Assembly (NCBI GenBank): GCA_937924445.1
Contig: CALDSX010000063.1
Span: forward strand, 1-42,034
Source of the DNA: an uncultured Chthoniobacterales bacterium
Lineage (GTDB): Bacteria; Verrucomicrobiota; Verrucomicrobiia; Chthoniobacterales; CALDSX01
DNA length: 42,034 nt
Direction of reading: 5' to 3'
Position numbers and translations under genes: made by a program. Shown piece after piece: positions 1,800-37,117 of the stretch. A model generated the notes under the pieces. That model saw only the letters and a list, made by a program, of their open reading frames with translations, was not told the origin of the DNA and did not search any database. Numbering within the stretch: the first letter of the stretch is position 1; each line of letters begins with the position of its first letter.

Positions 1800-3820
1800 G
1801 TCGCAAAGATCGGGTTGCTAAGTGGTCCGGAACTCCAGCGCCGTATTTTGAAAAGGTGGGCAGCGCGCTCCGCGTGTGGATCAAGCTCGACATAACACCA
1901 CGCACCTCTCCAGACGTAGGACTCGCCCAGCAACAAATCTTCCACCAGATAGGGTTCGTCGGGGAGAATTCCAAAGCGGGCAAGTGGTACTTCGACATGC
2001 CCAAAGCATCGGTTGTGAGGATTCGTGGCCGCAACGCAGAACACACAGCTTTCGCGCGCTTCGGTTACTTTGGAGTATACCAGAAGCTCGGGGTTATCGG
2101 AGCCATGGAACTCCACATTCGAGTAATATTGGAGAGCACGTTCGGACCGTCGTGCGTTGTTGATGCGAGCAATCCAATCCTTGATATGCCCGGGTGCATC
2201 CCAGTTGCGTGCTTTGAATTGATACTTTTCAGATTCCCAATACTCCTCTTTGCCTGGCATAGGGGTGTTTTCGCACAACTCAAACCCGCTATAAATGCCA
2301 TAAACCGAAGAGAGAGTGGCCGCAAGAAATACTCGAATGAGAAAGCCGGGACGGCCAGAGTATTGTAAGTAGAAGGGCAGGATATCCGGCGTGTTGGTGA
2401 AAAAATTGCCGCGGAAATAGTCTTTCATTTCCGTTTGCGTTAATTCAACAACATATTCCCGCAGTTCTTGAGCGGTGTTTCGCCAAGTAAAGTAGGTATA
2501 GCTTTGTGTAAAACCGGCCTTGGCAAGAGCACGCATCATTTTGGGTTTGGTAAATGCCTCGGAGAGAAAAATAACGTCAGGATATTTTGCCTGCACAGCA
2601 GCGATGAGATATTCCCAAAAGGCGACGGGCTTCGTGTGGGGATTGTCCACACGAAAAATGCGAACGCCATGTCGGCACCAGAAAAGGATGATGTCGCGCA
2701 TTTCATCCCAAAGAGCCCGCCAGGTAGGTGCATGGAAATTTAGCGGATAGATATCCTCGTATTTTTTAGGTGGGTTTTCCGCATATTTAATCGAGCCGTC
2801 AGGGCGGTGAAAAAACCACTCGGGATGTTCTTTGACGTAGGGATGATCAGGGGAGCAATTAATCGCGAAGTCGATGGCGACTTCCATACCTCGAGCCCGG
2901 ATCTCGCCAACGAGCCAATCAAAGTCGGCAAGAGTGCCGAGTTCAGGTTCCACTGAAAAGTGACCACCCGAAGGAGCACCGATGGCGTAGGGAACACCTG
3001 GATCACCTGGGTTGGCAACAAGGGAGTTGTTCGGGCCTTTGCGTTTGGTAAATCCAATGGGATGGATTGGCGGGAAGTAGATGACGTCAAAGCCCATCGC
3101 TCTCGCATAGTCCACTCTCGGCAGGCAGTCGCGAAGCTTCGACCCCCGATCTGCATGACCTTCGGCGGAGCGTGGAAAAAACTCATACCACGCCGCAAAA
3201 ACAGCGGCGTCGCGATCCACCTGCACCGGAAGAGGCCGGGACCGCGTGGCTAAAGAAAGGTCGGGATTCCGTGCCATAAGAGCTGCGAGCCTGGAGTTAA
3301 GAGCCAAACTCCGGACTACATCGTGGCTCGCCTGGCGAAGATCAGCTGCGTATTTCAAAAGTTCGACGGCATCCGGCGGAGGCACCCGTGATCGTGTTTT
3401 GTGGGTTTGCTTAGAACTTTTTTTGATGCGGTTTGCTGTCTCTTCGAGGAGCCGAGCCCCCTCTTCGAGTTCTGTTGTTAGGTCCTTCTGGCCGGCGTCG
3501 AATTTTTTTCGAAATTCTTCCCTCCAGGAAAGGAAAGGATCGCCCCATGCCTCAATCACAACCTCGTGGGCTCCATATTCTCTAAACACAACCATTCCTG
3601 TCCAGCGATCATTTTCGATATGCCACATTCGCGAGGAGCACCAGTCATCCGCATCATGCCGACGCCAAAGTAGTCGCGCGGAAAGAACATCATGGCCGTC
3701 TTTAAAAATATCCGCTTCAATACGCACCGATTCTTTCAAAGATCTTTTTACAGAGTGCCGACCGCAATCCACTAAGGGCGTGATATTTTCGATAACAGCG
3801 GTTTCGCGCGGTTTATTCAT
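1796..3820 (-). CDS. glgE: Alpha-1,4-glucan:maltose-1-phosphate maltosyltransferase (GlgE-like, GH13)
   Basis: 674-aa ORF. GH13 motifs include GFDVIYFPPIHPIG, VAIDFAINCSPDHPY, GVRIFRVDNPHTKP and FLSEAFTKPKMM, the FRVDNPHTKP form being typical of GlgE. Overlaps the amidase start by 4 bp. Confidence 0.85.
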   Translation of the reverse strand: MNKPRETAVIENITPLVDCGRHSVKRSLKESVRIEADIFKDGHDVLSARLLWRRHDADDWCSSRMWHIENDRWTGMVVFREYGAHEVVIEAWGDPFLSWREEFRKKFDAGQKDLTTELEEGARLLEETANRIKKSSKQTHKTRSRVPPPDAVELLKYAADLRQASHDVVRSLALNSRLAALMARNPDLSLATRSRPLPVQVDRDAAVFAAWYEFFPRSAEGHADRGSKLRDCLPRVDYARAMGFDVIYFPPIHPIGFTKRKGPNNSLVANPGDPGVPYAIGAPSGGHFSVEPELGTLADFDWLVGEIRARGMEVAIDFAINCSPDHPYVKEHPEWFFHRPDGSIKYAENPPKKYEDIYPLNFHAPTWRALWDEMRDIILFWCRHGVRIFRVDNPHTKPVAFWEYLIAAVQAKYPDVIFLSEAFTKPKMMRALAKAGFTQSYTYFTWRNTAQELREYVVELTQTEMKDYFRGNFFTNTPDILPFYLQYSGRPGFLIRVFLAATLSSVYGIYSGFELCENTPMPGKEEYWESEKYQFKARNWDAPGHIKDWIARINNARRSERALQYYSNVEFHGSDNPELLVYSKVTEARESCVFCVAATNPHNRCFGHVEVPLARFGILPDEPYLVEDLLLGESYVWRGAWCYVELDPHAERAAHLFKIRRWSSGPLSNPIFAT

Positions 3821-4806
3821 GAGAGAGATTCGAGGGTTTTTGCCAGGGACTCAAGTCCCGGAATCTGGGCAAGGAAGATCTTTAGCCGTTCAAGAGCGGT
3901 TGGAATGTGTAGGAGAAACTCGGTTTTTCCTTTCGTATGACCAAGAAATCCGTAGGCTCCCATGGCTTGCATGAGGCGTTGGATGGCACAGAGTGGAAAT
4001 TCTTCAGCGACGATTTTGTCGGGATAACCCATGGCAGAACAATAAAAAAACAGCAGTTCGGTTCTCTCTTCATTTTTGAGTGAAACGTAAGGATCGAGCA
4101 GAAGAGAAGCCACGTCATAGAGAGGGACCCCTGGCCGCGCTCCTTGAAAATCGATAAAAACCGCTTCACCTCCTCCCCTCAAAAGGACGTTTTGAGATTG
4201 TAAATCCCGATGGATCAGCGCCCGAGGTGCGGCGGCGAGTCGGCGGGCGATTTCAGAGAGTGCAGGGAGATTCTGTAGACGGGACGTCTCTTCAGAGCCG
4301 AGGCCGAAATGGCGACCGAGGCAGTTGTCGAAAAAATATTCCTGTTCCCAACGGTAGAGAGCCTCATCAAACTGGCGCTCAAGTCGGAGACGCGCTTTGA
4401 TTGCGTTTGCTTGGCCGAACCTATGAAGAGTCGCGGCGTGTCGAAGCACCTGCCGGTAAATGGCACTACGATAGGCCCAAGGTTCATTGCGAACGCTCCA
4501 GAGGCTGGAATCGCCAAGATCTTCCATCCAAACAAGTCGCCGTTCCGGATCCCACGCGAGGATTTCCGGAACCGGTATTCCCAACGCGGAGAGCAGTCTA
4601 GCAACCGGAACAAACTGTTCGTTTTCGGCGCGCCCGCGCCCGTATCTCATCACAATCAGACGCGAACCATTGGCCGACGCGACTCGGTAAAACATTCGGT
4701 CAGATCCGGAGCGGTCAATAAGCCGCACATTGCCGTCCAACCCCGGGCTGTCGGCCAAAGGGCCGAGAAGCCACCCGTCATCATTCGATCCATTTAGCCT
4801 GACCAT
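3817..4806 (-). CDS. Aminoglycoside phosphotransferase-fold sugar kinase, AmgK-like (MurNAc/GlcNAc anomeric kinase family)
   Basis: 329-aa ORF. Motifs: SGSDRMFYRV, WMEDLGDSSLW, ALIHRDLQSQNVLLRGGGEAVFIDFQGARPGVPLYDVASLLLDPYV. Overlaps the glgE start by 4 bp. Confidence 0.75.
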   Translation of the reverse strand: MVRLNGSNDDGWLLGPLADSPGLDGNVRLIDRSGSDRMFYRVASANGSRLIVMRYGRGRAENEQFVPVARLLSALGIPVPEILAWDPERRLVWMEDLGDSSLWSVRNEPWAYRSAIYRQVLRHAATLHRFGQANAIKARLRLERQFDEALYRWEQEYFFDNCLGRHFGLGSEETSRLQNLPALSEIARRLAAAPRALIHRDLQSQNVLLRGGGEAVFIDFQGARPGVPLYDVASLLLDPYVSLKNEERTELLFFYCSAMGYPDKIVAEEFPLCAIQRLMQAMGAYGFLGHTKGKTEFLLHIPTALERLKIFLAQIPGLESLAKTLESLS

Positions 4807-5192
4807 TTTACTTTATGGCGATTGCGCTTGATTTCACTTCGGCGCTTTTTCTCTTTCAGAATTTTCTCTTTCAACCCAGGAGGCTTTGGCCGTTTTCTGC
4901 GGCGCTCGAGCTCTCGTTCAGCTCTTTTTTTAATAACCTGCTCTGCGCTAAGGTCAGAGGCTTTTTCCACAAGACGACGCCAAGCGAGTAGGCGGTTTGT
5001 GGCCTGAGAGCGTTCTTTCATCACTCTAACAAACAGATTTAGGGGTTTGTAGTGTAACGAAACAGCCGATGAAACTTTATTCACATTCTGCCCGCCTGGA
5101 CCCCTTGCCCGGGAAAAACGTTCCACTACCTGCTCGGGACAAATACCCACTGATCGGGCCGCTTCGTGTGCCTCATCAAGCGAGCTTTTCAT
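4794..5192 (-). CDS. arfB: Class-I release-factor-like peptidyl-tRNA hydrolase (ArfB/YaeJ-like)
   Basis: 132 aa with FSRARGPGGQNVNKVSSAVSLHY (GGQ motif) and a basic C-terminal tail (KRPKPPGLKEKILKEKKRRSEIKRNRHKVKWSG). Confidence 0.8.
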   Translation of the reverse strand: MKSSLDEAHEAARSVGICPEQVVERFSRARGPGGQNVNKVSSAVSLHYKPLNLFVRVMKERSQATNRLLAWRRLVEKASDLSAEQVIKKRAERELERRRKRPKPPGLKEKILKEKKRRSEIKRNRHKVKWSG

Positions 5193-5225
5193 GATGCCCC
5201 GGCCGCAGTGCCGTGCTTTGTTAAA

Positions 5226-5576
5226 TCAGCCGAACCGTTTTTTGCGCTCCACCTTTACCTGCGCTACATGGCGGTTTCGCAGTTTGACACGCGTTTTTCG
5301 CTTACGAAGCTGCCTTGCCAATTTATCAACCACCTTGTCAATGGCGGCATAGAGGTCGGAGTCGTAACTTTCAGCATGAACATCCGGTCCCGGGATGGCA
5401 AGGTGAACCTTCACCTGGTATTTTTTTTGAACTGCGCCGCCTTCATCGTGAATGAGCACACAGTGTGCACCGATGATTTCTTCCGCGATAGACTCCAGAT
5501 GTTCGACTTTATCGGCCACATATCCGTGAATAGCGGCAGTGAGGGTGAGGTGTCTTGGACTGACGTGTATCTGCAT
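5226..5576 (-). CDS. hpf: Ribosome hibernation promoting factor / RaiA-family protein
   Basis: MQIHVSPRHLTLTAAIHGYVADKVEHLESI...YAAIDKVVDKLARQLRKRKTR. The start at ATG 5576 is preferred over the longer ORF start at 5729 because the family begins here. Confidence 0.85.
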   Translation of the reverse strand: MQIHVSPRHLTLTAAIHGYVADKVEHLESIAEEIIGAHCVLIHDEGGAVQKKYQVKVHLAIPGPDVHAESYDSDLYAAIDKVVDKLARQLRKRKTRVKLRNRHVAQVKVERKKRFG

Positions 5577-5898
5577 ATGAGAAGTAACATAAGTCACGCC
5601 AAACACCGCATTCAACAAATTTGCGCATTTTTCTAACTCTTCATTCGCCGGGAAGCAAGATGCGACGGGTTTTGGTGAACGTATAGGGTGAAGGCGCGTC
5701 TGACGAGGGAGGCAGTCCCAAGCGAGCAAGAGGAGAGATCAGTCCGGGTTCACGCCCTCAGGGAGAACCATGCGGGATCAATCCAAAAATTTGATCTAGA
5801 AAGAGGTGAAAAAATTTTTGATCCAAACAGGATTTGTCGAGATAGCCTCAGGAGAAAGGAACCAATGATCCCCAGCAAACGGTAGCGGTTCTTTTATT

Positions 5899-6264
<366 letters not shown>

Positions 6265-6298
6265 TTATTTGAGGTCGCTTCGTGAGCGGCGAGAGCCT

Positions 6299-6352
6299 TT
6301 CAACTTCAGAGAGCAGTCGTCCACTCCCCCTCCGACCGCTCTCTGAGTTGAA
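6299..6352. repeat. Long near-perfect inverted repeat in the glnB upstream region
   Basis: TTCAACTTCAGAGAGCAGTCG (6299-6319) pairs with CGACCGCTCTCTGAGTTGAA (6333-6352), with one bulge and one mismatch. Confidence 0.7.
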
Positions 6353-6814
6353 CCCTCACCCGTCTCACTTGGCGTCATGTCCACACCCTTTAACCCTTGC
6401 AAACAAGCATCAAGCGTAGTAGCAGCAGCCGTGCCATACCTCCTCATGGTCGGTAGTTTTCAAAAAAATTTATAGCCACCTTGCGATTTGAGGGAGAATG
6501 ACCCTGCATTACCGGTCTGCTAATTCACCTTTTTTGGCAATTCAGGTGCCACGATATGGGCAAAAATCGCCAGTCCCACTCGGAGATTGGCCAAAACGTC
6601 TCAAGATGAGCTCGTCGCTGGTTCCCTTCCGACAATCACTCGACTCAGCGTTGTAGGCAGAACGCTCAGTGACATGGTCAGATGAATAAATAAAAAACGC
6701 TCTCTGTTCGGTTCTATCGCGAGGGTAGAACTCGATTTAGTCCATTTGCCCCGATTAGGCCTCGACCGATGCCACTTTCCTCACGCCGGAGGTGGTTGCC
6801 TTTAAACAGCTCAA

Positions 6815-10570: not shown

Positions 10571-10867
10571 ATGCAAACTCCTTTTTCTGCTGAGAAATCC
10601 AGCACAGGTTCACCAAAAAAGTCGCCTAAACTTTCAAGGCCCGACACATTGAACCGACGCAGTTCGATATCAGCCCAAGAACAGCCGGCGACCAATCAGT
10701 TCGCTCATCAAAGGTCGGCCGAGTGCCAACGTATTACAAAGCGGCTGGCCGATCGCGCCTTGCTCGACGCATACGTTGAAGCGGGTTTGGATGCAGAAGT
10801 GCGCAGGTATTTTCGCAGCCTGCCAGAGAATAACCCCGGGCGAAAGCCCACCCACCGAAAGGCCTAA
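10571..10867 (+). CDS. Small hypothetical protein
   Basis: 98-aa ORF ending 8 bp before truA, with a charged plausible C-terminal half (RITKRLADRALLDAYVEAGLDAEVRRYF). No recognised family, and there is an opposing ORF. Confidence 0.3.
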   Translation: MQTPFSAEKSSTGSPKKSPKLSRPDTLNRRSSISAQEQPATNQFAHQRSAECQRITKRLADRALLDAYVEAGLDAEVRRYFRSLPENNPGRKPTHRKA

Positions 10868-10875
10868 CCGCAGGA

Positions 10876-11649
10876 ATGCGCCGTTTGCGCATTCGCATCG
10901 CCTACGATGGCGCGGGTTTCCAAGGTTGGCAATCCCAGCAGGGTCGTGGCGCTATTCAGGACTTGGTCGAGGATGCCATTGCCTCCCTCACTGGACAGCG
11001 CGTTCGCATCCACTCGGCGGGGCGCACGGATGCGGGGGTCCATGCCCTTGGGCAGGAAGCTCACTTTGACTTACCCTCCAACATTCGCATTCCCTGCGAA
11101 AAATGGCCAGAGGCACTCAATACAAAACTTCCGCCTCAAATTCGTGTGATGCGCTGTCACGTCGTATCTCCAACTTTTCATGCGCGGTTTTCGGCTGTTG
11201 CAAAAACGTACCGCTACGAAATTCGCCTCGGGCGAATTTTACCGCCGCATGAGTATAACCGCGTCTGGCTGGTGCCTATGCCGCTGGACATTCATCTGCT
11301 TTATAAGGGGCTGGCAGCGTTCAGGGGCAGGCATGATTTCCGTTCATTTGCCGCAAACCGCGGGAGCCTCGAACCTGACACTGTGCGGGAGATTTTTCAG
11401 GCTACTGCCGTGGCACGCGGAAAGCGGCTCTCGATCATTTTCAAGGGCGACGGTTTTCTTTATCGAATGGTTCGTCTGATGGTAGGCGGACTTGTGCAAA
11501 TGGCGGCGGGACGCATGACTTTTGATGGGATAACTCAACTCATTGACCCTCCGACAGATTCCAAAGCAAAATGTACATTTTGTGCTCCTGCATGTGGGTT
11601 GACCCTTGTTCGCGTTTTTTATTCGAATACCAAATCACCTGCAGCATGA
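10876..11649 (+). CDS. truA: tRNA pseudouridine(38-40) synthase
   Basis: 257 aa: MRRLRIRIAYDGAGFQGWQSQ, IHSAGRTDAGVHALGQ, FKGDGFLYRMVRLMVG. Confidence 0.95.
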   Translation: MRRLRIRIAYDGAGFQGWQSQQGRGAIQDLVEDAIASLTGQRVRIHSAGRTDAGVHALGQEAHFDLPSNIRIPCEKWPEALNTKLPPQIRVMRCHVVSPTFHARFSAVAKTYRYEIRLGRILPPHEYNRVWLVPMPLDIHLLYKGLAAFRGRHDFRSFAANRGSLEPDTVREIFQATAVARGKRLSIIFKGDGFLYRMVRLMVGGLVQMAAGRMTFDGITQLIDPPTDSKAKCTFCAPACGLTLVRVFYSNTKSPAA

Positions 11650-11659
11650 TCTCTGAAAA

Positions 11660-13993
11660 ATGAGTTGCTTGACATCTCCGCCGCTAACTAAAGCACCCAC
11701 GACAGCGGTGTGCCGTGGCGGACGGCTTCTGCGCAGTGGGCTGCTGCTAGCAGCTTTTTTCCTTTTCTCGGCAGTGGTGGGTCTATTCCTCGCAGATCTC
11801 TTTCTGCCGCTGCCAGCTGAGTTGCTCGCACCCCGTCCGCTCACATCGAGGGTACTCGATCGCCATGGAGTGCCACTTGCTGAATTTGGTACCAAGACAG
11901 CATGCAAACAGGAATGGCTCGATCTAAATCAGATGGGCAGATTTCTGCCGACCATAACGGTCGCGTTGGAGGATCGGCGGTTCTTTTCCCATTCGGGGGT
12001 GGATTTCCGCTCAGTTGCCCGCTCTTTGAGGGATAATCTCTTTCATCCCGGCTCAGGTGGTGGGGCTTCGACCCTAACCCAGCAGTTAGTGAAACTCTCA
12101 CTCGGACGACGTGGGGTGCCGCTTCTTGACAAGCTTATCGAGATACTCCACGCGAGAAAAATCGAGCGTCACTGGCCGAAGCGTCAAATTCTTGCGGCTT
12201 ACCTCAATCGTCTCGACTACGGAAATCGGTTAATCGGTCCAGCTGCGGCCGCAGAAGCTTATTTTGGCAAGAGACCAGAAGCCTTGACGTTGGCGGAAGC
12301 AATTTATCTTGCCGGTTTGCCCCGCTCGCCGACACGACTTAATCCGTGGCGAAGGCCAGTCGCCGCGGCGGCCGAGTTTCGCCGTTCGGTCTCGCGTCTG
12401 AAGCGATTAGATACCAAATTACCAGACGGAACTTCGGAAGGGCTCGAGCTTCAAAAAGACTCTCTCAGTCGACTCGAGCCACCGCCGGTCAGGCCATGGC
12501 AGCGATCTGCTTTTATGGACTCTTCAGCGAGGTTTTTTGCCGACGAGGCAATTCGCCGGGCCAAAGGAAAAAGTGCTATTGTGCACACGACGTTAGACAA
12601 AGCATTGCAACAAAAGGTGTTTGCACTCGCATCCGCTCATCTCGAATCGCTCAAGCGCCCTTCGGTGAGCGCTGTAGCAATTGTTGTTCTTTCGAACAAC
12701 AATTCTAAAGTCCGCGCGCATATTTCGCTTGATCTGAACTCGTCAGAAATTGACTGCACGAGGCTACGGCGCAGCCCAGGCTCCACGCTCAAACCATTTG
12801 TCTACCTCACCGCGCTTGAACGTCGCCTGATTACCGCCGCAACCCTGCTTCCCGACACACGTGATGCAGTGCGCGCTGTTTATCCGGATTATGCACCTCA
12901 AAACTACAGCAACAGGTTTCTCGGACCTGTTCGGGCAAGGGAGGCACTGGCAAATTCACTTAATGTACCCGCAGTTGTGCTCCTGGAAAGAGTTGGTGCG
13001 AGGGCTATGTTCCACCATCTTGAGGGATGGGGTATCTCTTTTGGGCGTCCATTTGATGATGTCGGCGCTGGATTTGTTCTCGGTAACTGTGAGGTTTCTC
13101 CGATGGATCTCGCGGCGGCTTACGCCGCCATCGCACGTGGAGGAGTGGCTGTTCCGCCAAGCTGGTTGGAATCGGAATTCACCGCTGGTCGCCGACGAGC
13201 CTCTGCCTCAAGCTGCGCAATTGTGGCGGATATTCTTTCGGACAACGACGCGAGAATCAGAGAATTCGGAGCCCGCTCGCCTCTGGCGCTACCGGTTCGA
13301 GTGGCTGCAAAAACGGGAACAAGCAGCTGGTTTCGCGATGCGTGGGCAGCTGGATTTACGCGGGACCACACTGTTGTCGTCTGGGTTGGCAATAGCTCCG
13401 GCGCCCCTCTCGGTGAACTCCCCGCCATCCGTGCCGCAGCACCGCTTTGGCGGGCAATTATTGATTACCTGCTGGCCCAAGGCAGCCGACCTTTGCAATT
13501 GCCCGAAAGCTTTGGCCTCGAGTCTGTAGAAATCTGCACACTCACCGGCCTTCGTGCCTCAGAGAAGAGCCCCGGAGTTGTAAGGGAATACTTTCTGCCC
13601 GGCACCGCACCAGAGGAATCATCTGCTGAAATGATCGACATTGAACAAGGCCATGCGATACCTTTACTCGACGCGCAATACGCCGCGTGGTGCGCCAGCC
13701 CGGATAATTCCATCGGTGCCAGGCTGAAACCAAACAGTGAACCAAAGATTCTTGTTCCGGAGGAGGGGGCCGTTTTGGCCCTGGACCGTGAGATTCCAAG
13801 AGCGCAACAACGAATTGAGTTCCGGGCCACCGGCATCGAGGAGGGAGGACGTTGGTTCGTCAATGAAAAGGAAATTTTTCCTGAAAACGGTCGCTACTCC
13901 TGGTCCCTAGAGTCGGGAAACCACACGGTTCGGCTTGAGACAGCAGACGGAAAGGTACTCTCCCGCCGTTTTAAGGTTCTTCCCTCACCGTAA
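11660..13993 (+). CDS. pbpC: Penicillin-binding protein 1C (transglycosylase/transpeptidase plus C-terminal beta domain)
   Basis: 777 aa: N-terminal TM; ALEDRRFFSHSGVD, GASTLTQQLVKL (GT51); SPGSTLKPFVYLTAL (SxxK), AAKTGTS (KTG); C-terminal WFVNEKEIFPENGRYSWSLESGNHTVRLE (BiPBP_C-like). Confidence 0.93.
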   Translation: MSCLTSPPLTKAPTTAVCRGGRLLRSGLLLAAFFLFSAVVGLFLADLFLPLPAELLAPRPLTSRVLDRHGVPLAEFGTKTACKQEWLDLNQMGRFLPTITVALEDRRFFSHSGVDFRSVARSLRDNLFHPGSGGGASTLTQQLVKLSLGRRGVPLLDKLIEILHARKIERHWPKRQILAAYLNRLDYGNRLIGPAAAAEAYFGKRPEALTLAEAIYLAGLPRSPTRLNPWRRPVAAAAEFRRSVSRLKRLDTKLPDGTSEGLELQKDSLSRLEPPPVRPWQRSAFMDSSARFFADEAIRRAKGKSAIVHTTLDKALQQKVFALASAHLESLKRPSVSAVAIVVLSNNNSKVRAHISLDLNSSEIDCTRLRRSPGSTLKPFVYLTALERRLITAATLLPDTRDAVRAVYPDYAPQNYSNRFLGPVRAREALANSLNVPAVVLLERVGARAMFHHLEGWGISFGRPFDDVGAGFVLGNCEVSPMDLAAAYAAIARGGVAVPPSWLESEFTAGRRRASASSCAIVADILSDNDARIREFGARSPLALPVRVAAKTGTSSWFRDAWAAGFTRDHTVVVWVGNSSGAPLGELPAIRAAAPLWRAIIDYLLAQGSRPLQLPESFGLESVEICTLTGLRASEKSPGVVREYFLPGTAPEESSAEMIDIEQGHAIPLLDAQYAAWCASPDNSIGARLKPNSEPKILVPEEGAVLALDREIPRAQQRIEFRATGIEEGGRWFVNEKEIFPENGRYSWSLESGNHTVRLETADGKVLSRRFKVLPSP

Positions 13994-28529: not shown

Positions 28530-29693
28530 ATGAAAAAATATTCAAAGCAAATGGCTGACCCCGAAGTTGCCATGGTCCCACCATGCTCCCGTTCTCCGCT
28601 CCTCTGGGCTGTGGCAATTTTACTCTTGATAGCCCTCGGACAGCTTATCGTCCTCTCTATCGCATTCGGACCAAGGCTTAAAACCGCCGCACAAGCTGCA
28701 GCTGCTGCTTTTAGCGGAACCGATATTCATCTAAAGGATCAGACTGTCTTCATTAACCCACCCCCTGTTGCAATCCCACCTCCAGAGACCATCGGCACCG
28801 AAATCCACCCGGCAACTGCACGATCGGTTCCTGCAGACGATATAAATGCGGAGCCTGACCCGAATTCTTCCGCACACTTAAACGTCGCCAGGGAAGCCTC
28901 CCCTCAAGAGTTCATCCTCCGCACATCTCTCGAATCTGTGCTTATCGCTCGCAGTGCCAGAAAACAGGGCGATATGCAATTAGCTCTCGACAAACTCAGA
29001 GAAGCCCAAGCTCTTGCTCCAGACAATCCGGAAGTGGTCGCTGAGTTGGCCATCACTTTTGAACAAATGGGTCTAATAGATAAAGCCATTGCACACTGGC
29101 GTACTGTTTATCAGCTCGGACCCCGCGGGGGGATTTATTACCGCATGGCTACAGAAAAAATAACCCACGGGGTTGGCCAACAGACAAATTCTGCAAGTGA
29201 CCTGCTCGAAACCGAGCAGAGAGGTGGGTTGCTCCAAACCCGCGAATCCTCAAAGCTCCTTATCGAAAGCGCGGAAGTACAAAAACTCAATGCCGATGAA
29301 GAACGGCAGGGTAGCCTCGAGTTACGTCTGATTTTCAGAGCACAAGAACGCCCCCTTTCCATTCGAGAAACAAAAGTGCAAGTCTATTTTTATGATATTA
29401 TCAACGACGAAAAAGTCGAGCTAACGAATGCCGACACCACGTCGAAATGGACAACCAAACCCATCGATTGGGTCAATGGCGTTCCGGAAGAGCTGCGTGT
29501 GACTTATACTCCACCGGCTGAGGATACCGAAGATGCCAATTCGCGAAGAAAGTTTCTCGGGTATATCGTTAGCGTTTATTATAAAAATAAGCTACAGGAT
29601 GTCGTAGCCGAACCCAAAAGGCTCTTGGACCTTTTTCCCCCTCCAAACACACTGAGCGATGAACTCCCAGAAATTGATCCTACTAGCGGTTGA
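28530..29693 (+). CDS. TM-anchored TPR-containing protein
   Basis: 387 aa with an N-terminal TM (LLWAVAILLLIALGQLIVLSIAFG) and TPR-like repeats (KQGDMQLALDKLREAQALAPDNPEVVAELAITFEQMGLIDKAIAHWRTVYQLGP). Overlaps the next ORF by 35 bp. Confidence 0.75.
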   Translation: MKKYSKQMADPEVAMVPPCSRSPLLWAVAILLLIALGQLIVLSIAFGPRLKTAAQAAAAAFSGTDIHLKDQTVFINPPPVAIPPPETIGTEIHPATARSVPADDINAEPDPNSSAHLNVAREASPQEFILRTSLESVLIARSARKQGDMQLALDKLREAQALAPDNPEVVAELAITFEQMGLIDKAIAHWRTVYQLGPRGGIYYRMATEKITHGVGQQTNSASDLLETEQRGGLLQTRESSKLLIESAEVQKLNADEERQGSLELRLIFRAQERPLSIRETKVQVYFYDIINDEKVELTNADTTSKWTTKPIDWVNGVPEELRVTYTPPAEDTEDANSRRKFLGYIVSVYYKNKLQDVVAEPKRLLDLFPPPNTLSDELPEIDPTSG

Positions 29694-32253
29694 CGACGAT
29701 CCAGTCCTCTTAAATCAGCTTCGTGACGCTGTAAATCGGCTTGCCCTACAGCGAATTATCCTTATTCCCGCAAAAGGTGCTGATTCGGCGCTCGAACTCT
29801 CCAATAGGGTCCCCCGAATAGACCTTTTGCTCGTCGACGTGTATTTGAAAAATACTGATGGGTTGACGCTGCGTGACAGTTTGATCGCGCGACATCCCAA
29901 CCTGCAAACGGCTTTCACAACCTTTTATGACGTGAGCGAGGTTTCACCACGATTAGGAGACGCTCCTGTCTTTGTTAAGCCCTTTTCTGCTGATGACGTT
30001 CTGAACACCATTCTCTCTTGGTTGCCGGAGGAAGAGAACACGCCGTCGGCTGTCCCTTCCACATCAGAGTCAGCGGCAACCCCTGTAGTAACGGCAACCT
30101 CTGTAGCAGCGGCAGTGCCCGTCGCAACGGCAACCCCTGTAGCAAAGGCAGTGCCTGTAGCCACAACAGACAGCCCGGTGGCTGCCAAAACCCCTATCCC
30201 TGTGGCTGGGCAGGCTCAACCGCTTCCGGCCAGTGCATCTCAAAGCCTTGACCCCGAACTCCAATCTGCTTCCAAATCACAACGGCTTAAAAAACTCATT
30301 GAGCGGCCAGGGTTCACAGGAAAACTAGATCAATTTCAGCTAATCGACATTATTCAAATGTGTTGTATTAGCGGGCGGACCGGCCGATTACGGATCACCA
30401 AAGGCATTTCAAGTGGCGTGATCTATCTAAAAAACGGGAATTTTATTCATGCAATAGTTGGCGTAAAGAGCGGCGTGGATGCGGTCAATGAAATAGTCTC
30501 ATGGCGCTCCGGGCAATTCCAATTCGAAGACGGTGTTTTGCCTGAGAGTCAAACCATCGCTGGAGGGTGGGAACATGTCATGATGGAGGCACTACGGCTT
30601 CGAGATGAGAGGGGAGATGATAAAGAAGCCGATGCAGAGAACACCAATCTCGAAGGCCGAATTCTTGGGGACTTCGAAGTTCAACGGAAGCTTGGCACTG
30701 GCGTGATGGGGGATGTTTACCTTGCCCAACAGGTTTCCATGCGGCGTCCTGTGGCACTAAAAGTTCTTTGGAAGCAGGCCGCCGAGGATCCGGAGACTGT
30801 CCAGAACTTCATTGCAGACGCTAGCGCAAAGGCTCAAGTACAGCACCGAAGTATTCTTTCGGTCTACGAAGCCGGAGAGGCGGCGGGCTATTTCTTCTAC
30901 GCTCGTGAATATGCCGAGGGCCAGAGCCTCGCAGATCTCATCGCTGCCGGACAAATTCTCGATGACATGAAAGCTCTTCAAGTCATTCGTGTCTCAGCTG
31001 AAGCGCTTTCTTACCTTAATCATTACAAAATACATCATGAAGGAATTGACGCTGGCCGAATCTACCTAATGAAAGACGGATCGGTCAGGATTTCCAACCT
31101 CGCCTCTGTTGGGGCAGAGGGCGCCATGCCTGTGCAGGCCGAAATCAGAGCTCTTGCCGGAATTGTGAACGCGGCAAAACAAGGTGGGGCGAATGCTTCT
31201 CCGGCTGTTCAAATGCTGCTTTCCAAAATGCAAACGCATGGAGCGGGCGGCTTTCTTTCTTGGGGGGCTCTCATCCAGGCTGTGCGAGAGCTAGAACCGA
31301 AAGTCGTCCCTGCGGATGCTTTTAAATTTTCCGAACAGGACCAAGCGGCGATAAGGGCTGTTGAGGAGATCAAAAAGAGCCAGAAGCTCACGGTTAAACG
31401 AACCATTTACGGGCTCGCGGCACTAGTTACTCTGTCTGCTCTTCTGGTCTATTTCTTCTTCTTCAGAAGTCATGAAAAGAACTTTTTCGGCAGTGTCGTC
31501 AAAATCCCTGCCGGTCCATTTATTTATCAAGACAATCAGAAAGCCACAACAAAAGAATTCTGGATTGACCAATATGAGGTGACAATCGGGCAATACGCTA
31601 AATTTCTTGCCCACTTACGCGCTCATCCCCAAGACGTCAAAAAATTCGCTGCGCCCGATCAGCCCAAAACCAAGACAAGCTACGAACCGAGAGTGATGCC
31701 CAACATGTGGAAAATTATGTACTCCAAAGCAAAACGAAAGGGAACTTATCGGAATGTTTCAATAGACCTTAACTGTCCTATCTTTGGTATTGATTGGTAT
31801 GATGCGTATGCCTACGCAAAGTGGCGCGGAGGGCGGCTACCAACCGAACAGGAATGGGAAAAAGCAGGTCGTGGACCTGATGGCAACCTCTACCCTTGGG
31901 GTAACAAAGTCGAGCCGAATATCATTGCACGAGTAAACACTGCGGCAGATTACATCCCAGAACCTGGTGTCAGACAAAAGGGAGACGTGGACGGTTTCGT
32001 CCATTGGTCACCTGTACATGAAACGATCGCCGATCGCTCTCCTTATAATGTGTTTAATATGGCTGGTAACGTGAGCGAATGGACTGCCTCCTTCGAGGGA
32101 AGCGGTCTCAACCGCACTCCGGTTATAAGAGGCGGCTCTTACAACTCCGACGATTTTGAACTGACCCGACGCGTGGTGGTATTACCTGCCGAAGTCGGTG
32201 ATTTTCGTGTGGGCTTCCGCGTTGTTTATGATTCTCCTCCCTTACGTCCTTAA
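29659..32253 (+). CDS. Multidomain protein: REC receiver, Ala/Thr/Pro linker, DUF4388/PATAN-like, protein kinase-like (catalytically degenerate), TM, SUMF1/FGE-sulfatase-like
   Basis: 864 aa. REC: VDDDP, LLLVDVYLKNTDGL, VFVKPF. DUF4388-like: FTGKLDQFQLIDIIQMCCISGRTGRLRI. Kinase-like: LGTGVMGDVYLAQQ, VALKVLWK. TM: YGLAALVTLSALLVYFFFF. SUMF1-like: IPAGPF, GRLPTEQEWEKAGRG, YPWG, NMAGNVSEWTAS, VIRGGSY. Confidence 0.85.
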   Translation: MNSQKLILLAVDDDPVLLNQLRDAVNRLALQRIILIPAKGADSALELSNRVPRIDLLLVDVYLKNTDGLTLRDSLIARHPNLQTAFTTFYDVSEVSPRLGDAPVFVKPFSADDVLNTILSWLPEEENTPSAVPSTSESAATPVVTATSVAAAVPVATATPVAKAVPVATTDSPVAAKTPIPVAGQAQPLPASASQSLDPELQSASKSQRLKKLIERPGFTGKLDQFQLIDIIQMCCISGRTGRLRITKGISSGVIYLKNGNFIHAIVGVKSGVDAVNEIVSWRSGQFQFEDGVLPESQTIAGGWEHVMMEALRLRDERGDDKEADAENTNLEGRILGDFEVQRKLGTGVMGDVYLAQQVSMRRPVALKVLWKQAAEDPETVQNFIADASAKAQVQHRSILSVYEAGEAAGYFFYAREYAEGQSLADLIAAGQILDDMKALQVIRVSAEALSYLNHYKIHHEGIDAGRIYLMKDGSVRISNLASVGAEGAMPVQAEIRALAGIVNAAKQGGANASPAVQMLLSKMQTHGAGGFLSWGALIQAVRELEPKVVPADAFKFSEQDQAAIRAVEEIKKSQKLTVKRTIYGLAALVTLSALLVYFFFFRSHEKNFFGSVVKIPAGPFIYQDNQKATTKEFWIDQYEVTIGQYAKFLAHLRAHPQDVKKFAAPDQPKTKTSYEPRVMPNMWKIMYSKAKRKGTYRNVSIDLNCPIFGIDWYDAYAYAKWRGGRLPTEQEWEKAGRGPDGNLYPWGNKVEPNIIARVNTAADYIPEPGVRQKGDVDGFVHWSPVHETIADRSPYNVFNMAGNVSEWTASFEGSGLNRTPVIRGGSYNSDDFELTRRVVVLPAEVGDFRVGFRVVYDSPPLRP

Positions 32254-32256
32254 CGT

Positions 32257-33177
32257 ATGGCAAAGTTTACTAACAGGTTATTTTTCGCAGCGTTGCTAGT
32301 TGCTGTGCAGATTTGCGGTGTTTGGTTTCAACCTGCATTAGCCCAGATCCAAGTCACTCTTCAGCCGACACGCAACGCTTTTGTCATTCACGAACCTCTT
32401 CTTGTCAATTTGACTCTCACAAACCTGGCTGGGCGGGAGATTATGTTAGAAGATACACCGGGCCAGCCTTGGCTTGATTTTCGTATCTCCAACCAGATAA
32501 CATCTCGGCCTGCCACCCGCCGCTCCTCTTCAAGCACGATTGCACCTCCGATTGTGATTCCGCCCGGAGCAACCGTGCGGCGGTCTTTTGACCTGAATCG
32601 CTACTTTCTCCTCGAAGAAATGGGAACGACAATCATTACTGCCGAGGTTCGTTTTGCCGCGATCAATCGAAGTTTTATCTCGAACCGTGTCCCTATTGAA
32701 ATCACCGATGGTCGAATACTCTGGAGTCAGACGCTTGGACTTCCAGGGACGCCAGATATCCGTCGGCTTGCACTACTTACCGCACGGCTTAACAACAAAA
32801 GCCTTGCCTTTCTTCGTGTCACAAACCCGGAAACTTACGCTGTTTATATGACACGCCCTCTGGGAGAGATTATCCTTCTAGCGGAACCACAGGCTCAGAT
32901 TGACGCTTCAAACAATTTACACCTTGTTTTTATGACGGCGCCGAAAGTTTACCTCCACTACACTTTCTCCTCCTCAGGAGAGCAGCTTGATCGTGTGGTG
33001 TATCAGGCCACTCAGACGCGGCCGATGCTCCTGCGCGATGCATCGGGAAATGTTGCGGTTGCGGGTGGCCTTGCGATCATCCCCAAAGCCACTTTAAGCG
33101 CAGAGGAACAGGTCTTGAATGCGCCAGCGAAACTCTCTGCTCGGCCTCCTGGGTTGCCGAATTCTGTCACAAAGTAG
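32257..33177 (+). CDS. Secreted hypothetical protein
   Basis: 306 aa with a signal peptide (RLFFAALLVAVQICGVWFQPALAQ). Begins 4 bp after the preceding stop. Confidence 0.7.
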   Translation: MAKFTNRLFFAALLVAVQICGVWFQPALAQIQVTLQPTRNAFVIHEPLLVNLTLTNLAGREIMLEDTPGQPWLDFRISNQITSRPATRRSSSSTIAPPIVIPPGATVRRSFDLNRYFLLEEMGTTIITAEVRFAAINRSFISNRVPIEITDGRILWSQTLGLPGTPDIRRLALLTARLNNKSLAFLRVTNPETYAVYMTRPLGEIILLAEPQAQIDASNNLHLVFMTAPKVYLHYTFSSSGEQLDRVVYQATQTRPMLLRDASGNVAVAGGLAIIPKATLSAEEQVLNAPAKLSARPPGLPNSVTK

Positions 33178-36703: not shown

Positions 36704-37117
36704 ATGGCAGAAATCCAAAAAGCAGACCCAAGCGGTGAAATGACTCGTCGGTTTATCGAGTTTGTGATGATGCAAGCGCAAAACGCGGCGATGTTTCTAG
36801 GTGAAATACCCAACCCCAGCACTGGCCGCGGTGAAATAAACCTCGACCTCGCAAAAGTGTTCATTGATCAGCTTGAGATGCTGAGCCTAAAAACCCGAGG
36901 TAACCTTTCTAAAGATGAGGAAGACATCCTCGCCAATACTCTCACCCAGCTCCGACTCTCTTTTGTTCGTGCCGGTGGCCTTGGTGTCGCAAACACGTCA
37001 CCATCGGCATCCGACTCTGACAGCAGGCCCGGCCCCGGCACCTCAACTTCGCCAGCTTCCGAGTCGGAGAACGAGGCAAACTCGCGCAAAAAATTCTCTA
37101 AAAGCTACGGCTCCTGA
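36704..37117 (+). CDS. DUF1844 domain protein
   Basis: 137 aa: FIEFVMMQAQNAAMFLGEIPNP...INLDLAKVFIDQLEMLSLKTRGNLSKDEEDILANTLTQLRLSFV. Confidence 0.8.
   Translation: MAEIQKADPSGEMTRRFIEFVMMQAQNAAMFLGEIPNPSTGRGEINLDLAKVFIDQLEMLSLKTRGNLSKDEEDILANTLTQLRLSFVRAGGLGVANTSPSASDSDSRPGPGTSTSPASESENEANSRKKFSKSYGS

Follow-up and report, generated by a model that had tools for sequence, protein, structure and literature searches.

What does a single bacterial protein do that joins a receiver, a DUF4388/PATAN-like module, a kinase-like fold, a transmembrane (TM) helix, and an FGE/SUMF1-like domain? Such a fusion is encoded on the 42,034-nt contig CALDSX010000063.1 of an uncultured Chthoniobacterales bacterium (assembly GCA_937924445.1), and this whole stretch of DNA is called the window here. 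A preliminary description proposed that the protein carries out phosphorylation-gated, inside-to-outside signaling and treated it as a system not known to have been described. The gene and its parts are as follows.

29659..32253, + strand: cassette gene 2, a REC-DUF4388-pseudokinase-TM-FGE-like protein of 864 aa (open reading frame, Pfam, family HMM, AlphaFold2)
29683..30006, + strand: receiver domain, aa 9-116 (Pfam Response_reg, family HMM)
29836-29838, + strand: codon of the phospho-acceptor Asp60, within the receiver
30034..30252, + strand: Ala/Pro/Val-rich disordered linker, aa 126-198 (pLDDT below 50)
30316..30612, + strand: DUF4388/PATAN-like domain, aa 220-318 (Pfam, 71 bits; genome search, 76 bits)
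30658..31305, + strand: pseudokinase domain, aa 334-549 (Pfam Pkinase, Foldseek, loss of catalytic residues)
31405..31461, + strand: TM helix, aa 583-601, inside a long helix of aa 560-602 (hydropathy, AlphaFold2 helix)
31495..32244, + strand: FGE/SUMF1-like domain, aa 613-862, predicted periplasmic and without catalytic cysteines (Pfam, SUMF2 match, cysteine columns)

The reading frame was confirmed on the plus strand, and all five of the proposed modules were recovered by a combination of Pfam, a family HMM, AlphaFold2, and Foldseek. Pfam matched FGE-sulfatase (123 bits, aa 627-856), DUF4388 (PF14332; 71.4 bits versus a cut-off of 25), and Pkinase (55 bits, aa 339-479, the first half of the model alone). 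The Response_reg match (PF00072; 27.5 bits, E 3.8e-6, aa 9-116) fell slightly below its 30.2-bit cut-off, but the family-specific HMM gave the receiver a score of 1e-26, which makes the identification unambiguous. The AlphaFold2 model (mean pLDDT 86 from 58 aligned sequences) contains four confidently folded domains (REC, with a pLDDT of about 95, DUF4388, kinase fold, and FGE fold) plus the linker and the single long helix, although its pTM of 0.43 means that the mutual placement of the domains is not predicted. The same order of modules was found again in independent genomes (L005, L006, L008, and L009), which rules out an assembly chimera or a chance reading frame.

The fusion is not a one-off but a member of a family found across the Verrucomicrobiota. 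A protein search of 213 Chthoniobacterales genomes hit 78 of them at E ≤ 1e-60, and a scan of genome contigs found 371 relatives, the best 80 of which were taken and came almost entirely from Verrucomicrobiota metagenome-assembled genomes. Removal of duplicates left a comparison set of 98 distinct relatives, nearly all from the same phylum; as these were picked by similarity, the counts given below describe the sample. They share a pseudokinase–TM–FGE-like core, which a receiver precedes in most cases. In an even sample of the phylum (388 genomes) a profile search matched 48, and for a few of these the match was to a single domain. The matched families include that of Akkermansia (f15), in which a protein of genome G244 is 89% identical to Amuc_1100.

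The receiver of the window protein has the complete residue set (the acidic pair D12/D13, the phospho-acceptor D60, T88, and K107), and phosphorylation gating of this protein is plausible from its sequence. The genome has nine HATPase_c matches which, together with a CheA-like cluster described below, indicate that candidate phosphodonors exist. As a general mechanism, however, the proposed gating did not hold. The phospho-acceptor column in 86 relatives reads Asp in 30, Glu in 25, Gly in 14, Asn in 11, Ala in 3, Ser in 2, and Arg in 1, so that 56 of the 86 have a substitution, and the state of this site (Asp or not) requires six changes on the core tree. The Chthoniobacterales mostly have Asp together with K107, the Verrucomicrobiaceae-like receivers have Glu with K107 mostly replaced by Asp, and the Akkermansiaceae-like receivers have Gly or Asn with K107 retained. 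Even the sister clade of the window protein (L008 and L009) has Glu at the phospho-acceptor position. Since only 30 of 86 relatives have the Asp, phosphorylation control is lineage-specific at best and not the core function of the family. Akkermansia-type members do without the receiver: locus L114 encodes, in order, a TPR protein, a pseudokinase–TM–reduced FGE protein, and a secreted protein, and Akkermansia has lost the receiver while retaining the cassette to which these genes belong. In L114, L115, and L116, all of f15, the FGE-like domain also misses a central stretch of about 40 profile positions.

The kinase fold is clear (Foldseek groups it with PknI and PknB, with an E of 6e-14 for PknI) and the window protein retains a G-loop and the β3 lysine, K368. 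The residues expected of an active Hanks-type Ser/Thr kinase are gone: HRD reads HEG, the catalytic-loop Asn is Arg (R467), and DFG reads NLA (N480). An active kinase was rejected on these grounds, and the designation as a pseudokinase stands. The losses are family-wide. The HRD column has Asp in 2 of 98 relatives, the DFG Asp column has Asn in 96 of 98, and the β3 Lys is retained in 46 of 98. A divergent branch of the family (L044, L049, L056, L087, L091, L108, L111, and L120) includes several members with DUF4388 and degraded receivers; in two members of the branch, L087 and L056, Gly rather than Asn occupies the DFG position.

The FGE-like domain follows the same pattern. Its sequence matches the SUMF2 and SUMF1 structures, and SUMF2 (1y4j, E 3e-19) is the best sequence match in the structural database; PorK/GldK are also among the matches, and EgtB belongs to the same fold family. 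In all 98 relatives the six columns scored in the cysteine region are free of Cys, and a functional FGE enzyme was rejected for want of the catalytic cysteine pair. Both enzyme-like domains thus look dead throughout the family, whose core would need neither kinase nor FGE catalysis. The loss of the HRD and DFG Asp residues together with the absence of the cysteines speaks against catalysis and favors binding or scaffolding. Some pseudokinases keep unusual activities, and the protein could still be an enzyme, either as an atypical kinase using K368, which it retains along with the G-loop, or as an EgtB-type oxygenase, given the fold that EgtB and FGE share. We regard this as very improbable: the HRD Asp is absent from 96 of the 98 relatives, the catalytic Asn and the DFG Asp are lost, the lysine is missing from about half of the relatives, and the FGE cysteines are missing from all of them.

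If catalysis is set aside, the protein might serve as a static, non-signaling scaffold for an envelope complex or as the hub of its assembly, with the receiver and pseudokinase serving as interaction platforms in the manner of PorK/GldK in the type IX secretion ring. The family-wide degradation of catalytic signatures, which includes the receiver Asp, fits this picture, as does the presence of PorK/GldK among the FGE-like matches. But the window lineage and most Chthoniobacterales keep D12, D60, T/S88, and K107 together, which would be unexpected under pure scaffolding, and we consider this alternative unlikely.

The arrangement of the modules about the membrane was predicted from hydropathy and charge. 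The segment at aa 583-601 is the sole hydrophobic segment (hydropathy 2.17) and has five Lys/Arg residues on its N-terminal side; a TM helix between the kinase and FGE domains is also present in the relatives. The receiver, DUF4388, and kinase fold are predicted to lie on the positively charged, cytoplasmic side and the FGE-like domain on the opposite side, in agreement, as a prediction, with the single-pass topology proposed earlier. Inside-to-outside signaling fits this topology, but outside-to-inside sensing and plain scaffolding are alternatives to it.

In the sensing alternative, a ligand in the envelope would be bound by the FGE-like domain together with the other two cassette proteins (TPR and secreted). 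The pseudokinase, receiver, and DUF4388 would then pass the signal on to targets in the cytoplasm, and in the window lineage the target might be the type IV pilus motor, reached via the DUF4388/PATAN domain. Classical receptors have a similar topology. Type IV pili are a known target of PATAN response regulators: the CheY-like REC-PATAN regulators PixG, PixE, and LsiR are implicated in type IV pilus motility, and PixE was reported to bind PilB1 (PMC7690835). They resemble the window protein in having a receiver and PATAN/DUF4388 in one chain, whereas in the fusion these two modules head a transmembrane pseudo-enzyme. The window genome encodes four long PilB/GspE-type ATPases and, in the vicinity of pilB and pilC, has another DUF4388 gene next to a CheA-like/CheX cluster, and by analogy with the cyanobacterial regulators the DUF4388 module may link the fusion to type IV pili. 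The family as a whole cannot have a pilus output as its function, however, as DUF4388 occurs in only about 9 of the 98 relatives (L001, L005-L009, L044, L049, and L056), and a receiver is normally a kinase-phosphorylated input rather than an output. Sensing in this direction is a tentative alternative that we think somewhat doubtful. The presence of DUF4388 requires five changes on the core tree, and the domain is an add-on rather than part of the family core. The chemosensory locus of the same genome (L142, C13:5500-19500) has consecutive CheA-like (Hpt plus HATPase_c), DUF4388, and CheX-like proteins at 3040-6458 and 10776-13893, a few kb from pilB/pilC-type genes, and possibly provides chemosensory control of pili.

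The genes that flank the fusion give further indications of its role. Its two immediate neighbors are as follows.

28530..29693, + strand: cassette gene 1, a membrane-anchored TPR protein of 387 aa (Pfam TPR_19, TM segment, linkage)
32257..33177, + strand: cassette gene 3, a secreted protein of 306 aa with a signal peptide and two beta domains (model, linkage)

The first protein has one TM segment (aa 24-42) followed by TPR and a C-terminal domain. The 3' end of its gene overlaps the fusion gene by 35 bp and a gap of 3 bp separates the fusion stop codon from gene 3, which suggests co-translation. HMM searches showed that, of the 86 relative loci with at least 1 kb of upstream room, 83 have a TPR homologue directly 5' of the fusion gene, and that 66 of 94 loci with room have a homologue of the secreted protein directly 3'. 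The secreted protein is not obligatory, since about 22 Akkermansiaceae-like loci, which form one clade, lack its gene. Gene 3 belongs to no Pfam family (the commonest Pfam match was Big_14, with a best E of 0.003). Its AlphaFold model (pLDDT 90.5) has two beta domains behind the signal peptide, but its best PDB matches were Ig/beta-sandwich proteins of a generic kind whose query TM-scores reached about 0.3 at most, so that no structural relative was convincing and no function could be assigned. Among the window neighbors only the TPR and secreted-protein genes recur around the relatives; hom, thrC, the M16 peptidase gene, kdsA, and lptCAB are not conserved beside the fusion gene and a functional tie to them was rejected. 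Because conservation is confined to these two neighbors, the three-gene cassette, which the preliminary description had missed, is likely to be the functional unit. A DUF1844 protein (77 bits) is encoded at 36704-37117 of the window, between the M16 peptidase gene and kdsA.

Gene 3 is followed directly on its 3' side by an amidase gene in 10 loci that are spread over distant clades (L005, L008, L010, L015, L024, L051, L062, L068, L109, and L112); that of L109 (8812-9543) encodes an N-acetylmuramoyl-L-alanine amidase (Pfam Amidase_3). No amidase gene lies beside the cassette in the window. As this gene follows the cassette in such scattered clades, we propose envelope or peptidoglycan work as the output. 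The reading we favor, and hold with moderate confidence, is that the protein is a single-pass inner-membrane pseudo-enzyme scaffold that links cytoplasmic events to a complex in the periplasm and may thereby control work on the envelope or peptidoglycan. The three cassette products would form one inner-membrane/periplasmic complex, although gene adjacency is no proof of a complex. The receiver would be phosphorylated in the window protein and act as a locked or pseudo-receiver in most relatives. Receiver and pseudokinase would work through shape change or partner binding rather than phosphotransfer to substrates, and the signal would cross the membrane along the long TM helix and reach the FGE-like domain, a putative binder of partners. 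Control of envelope or peptidoglycan remodeling is the most speculative step. A more specific version, in which the receiver and dead kinase switch the periplasmic complex through the TM helix and the dead FGE domain so as to control a peptidoglycan amidase, inside-to-outside and with no enzymatic transducer step, seems to us improbable.

Several known proteins share parts of this design. Chlamydia Pkn1, also from the PVC superphylum, fuses a kinase to a C-terminal FGE/SUMF1 domain (PMC3581485) and is reported to be cytoplasmic and catalytically active (PMC5177608). The window fusion likewise carries both folds in one chain but differs from Pkn1 as described in having a kinase fold without catalytic residues, a TM helix between the two folds, and a receiver and DUF4388 ahead of them. 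In the Pseudomonas aeruginosa H1-T6SS the FGE-like periplasmic protein TagR acts upstream of the membrane Hanks-type kinase PpkA (PMC10482370), and TagR1 is listed as an FGE-sulfatase-domain protein (PMC13411936). By analogy TagR–PpkA would be the closest functional precedent, an FGE-like part (predicted to be periplasmic in the fusion) being coupled to a kinase-type membrane part. TagR and PpkA are separate proteins with an active kinase in a T6SS context, whereas the fusion has inactive domains in one chain, and no T6SS gene was noticed among the window reading frames or as a conserved neighbor in the relative loci. PorK/GldK, which are lipoproteins of the type IX secretion ring, and SUMF2 share the FGE fold but have no kinase or receiver. 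Cyanobacterial kinase-CLec variable proteins, diversified by diversity-generating retroelements, combine an N-terminal Ser/Thr kinase with a C-terminal C-type-lectin-fold domain (PMC7517822), an arrangement like that of the window fusion; the portion of that report consulted mentions no receiver or DUF4388, both of which the fusion has.

A search of the literature, with most subscription journals outside its coverage, found no description of the family, and within that literature the view that the system is undescribed holds. Kinase–FGE and REC–PATAN fusions are already known separately; what that literature was not found to contain is the combination of modules, their inactivity, the TM junction, and the conserved cassette. 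The finding is of a conserved transmembrane pseudokinase system across the Verrucomicrobiota, Akkermansia included, and it offers a case in which a receiver, a kinase fold, and an FGE fold would all have been converted to non-enzymatic parts. Targeted mutagenesis and transposon libraries are now available for Verrucomicrobium spinosum (PMC12283558), and the system would be testable there if the cassette is present in that organism.
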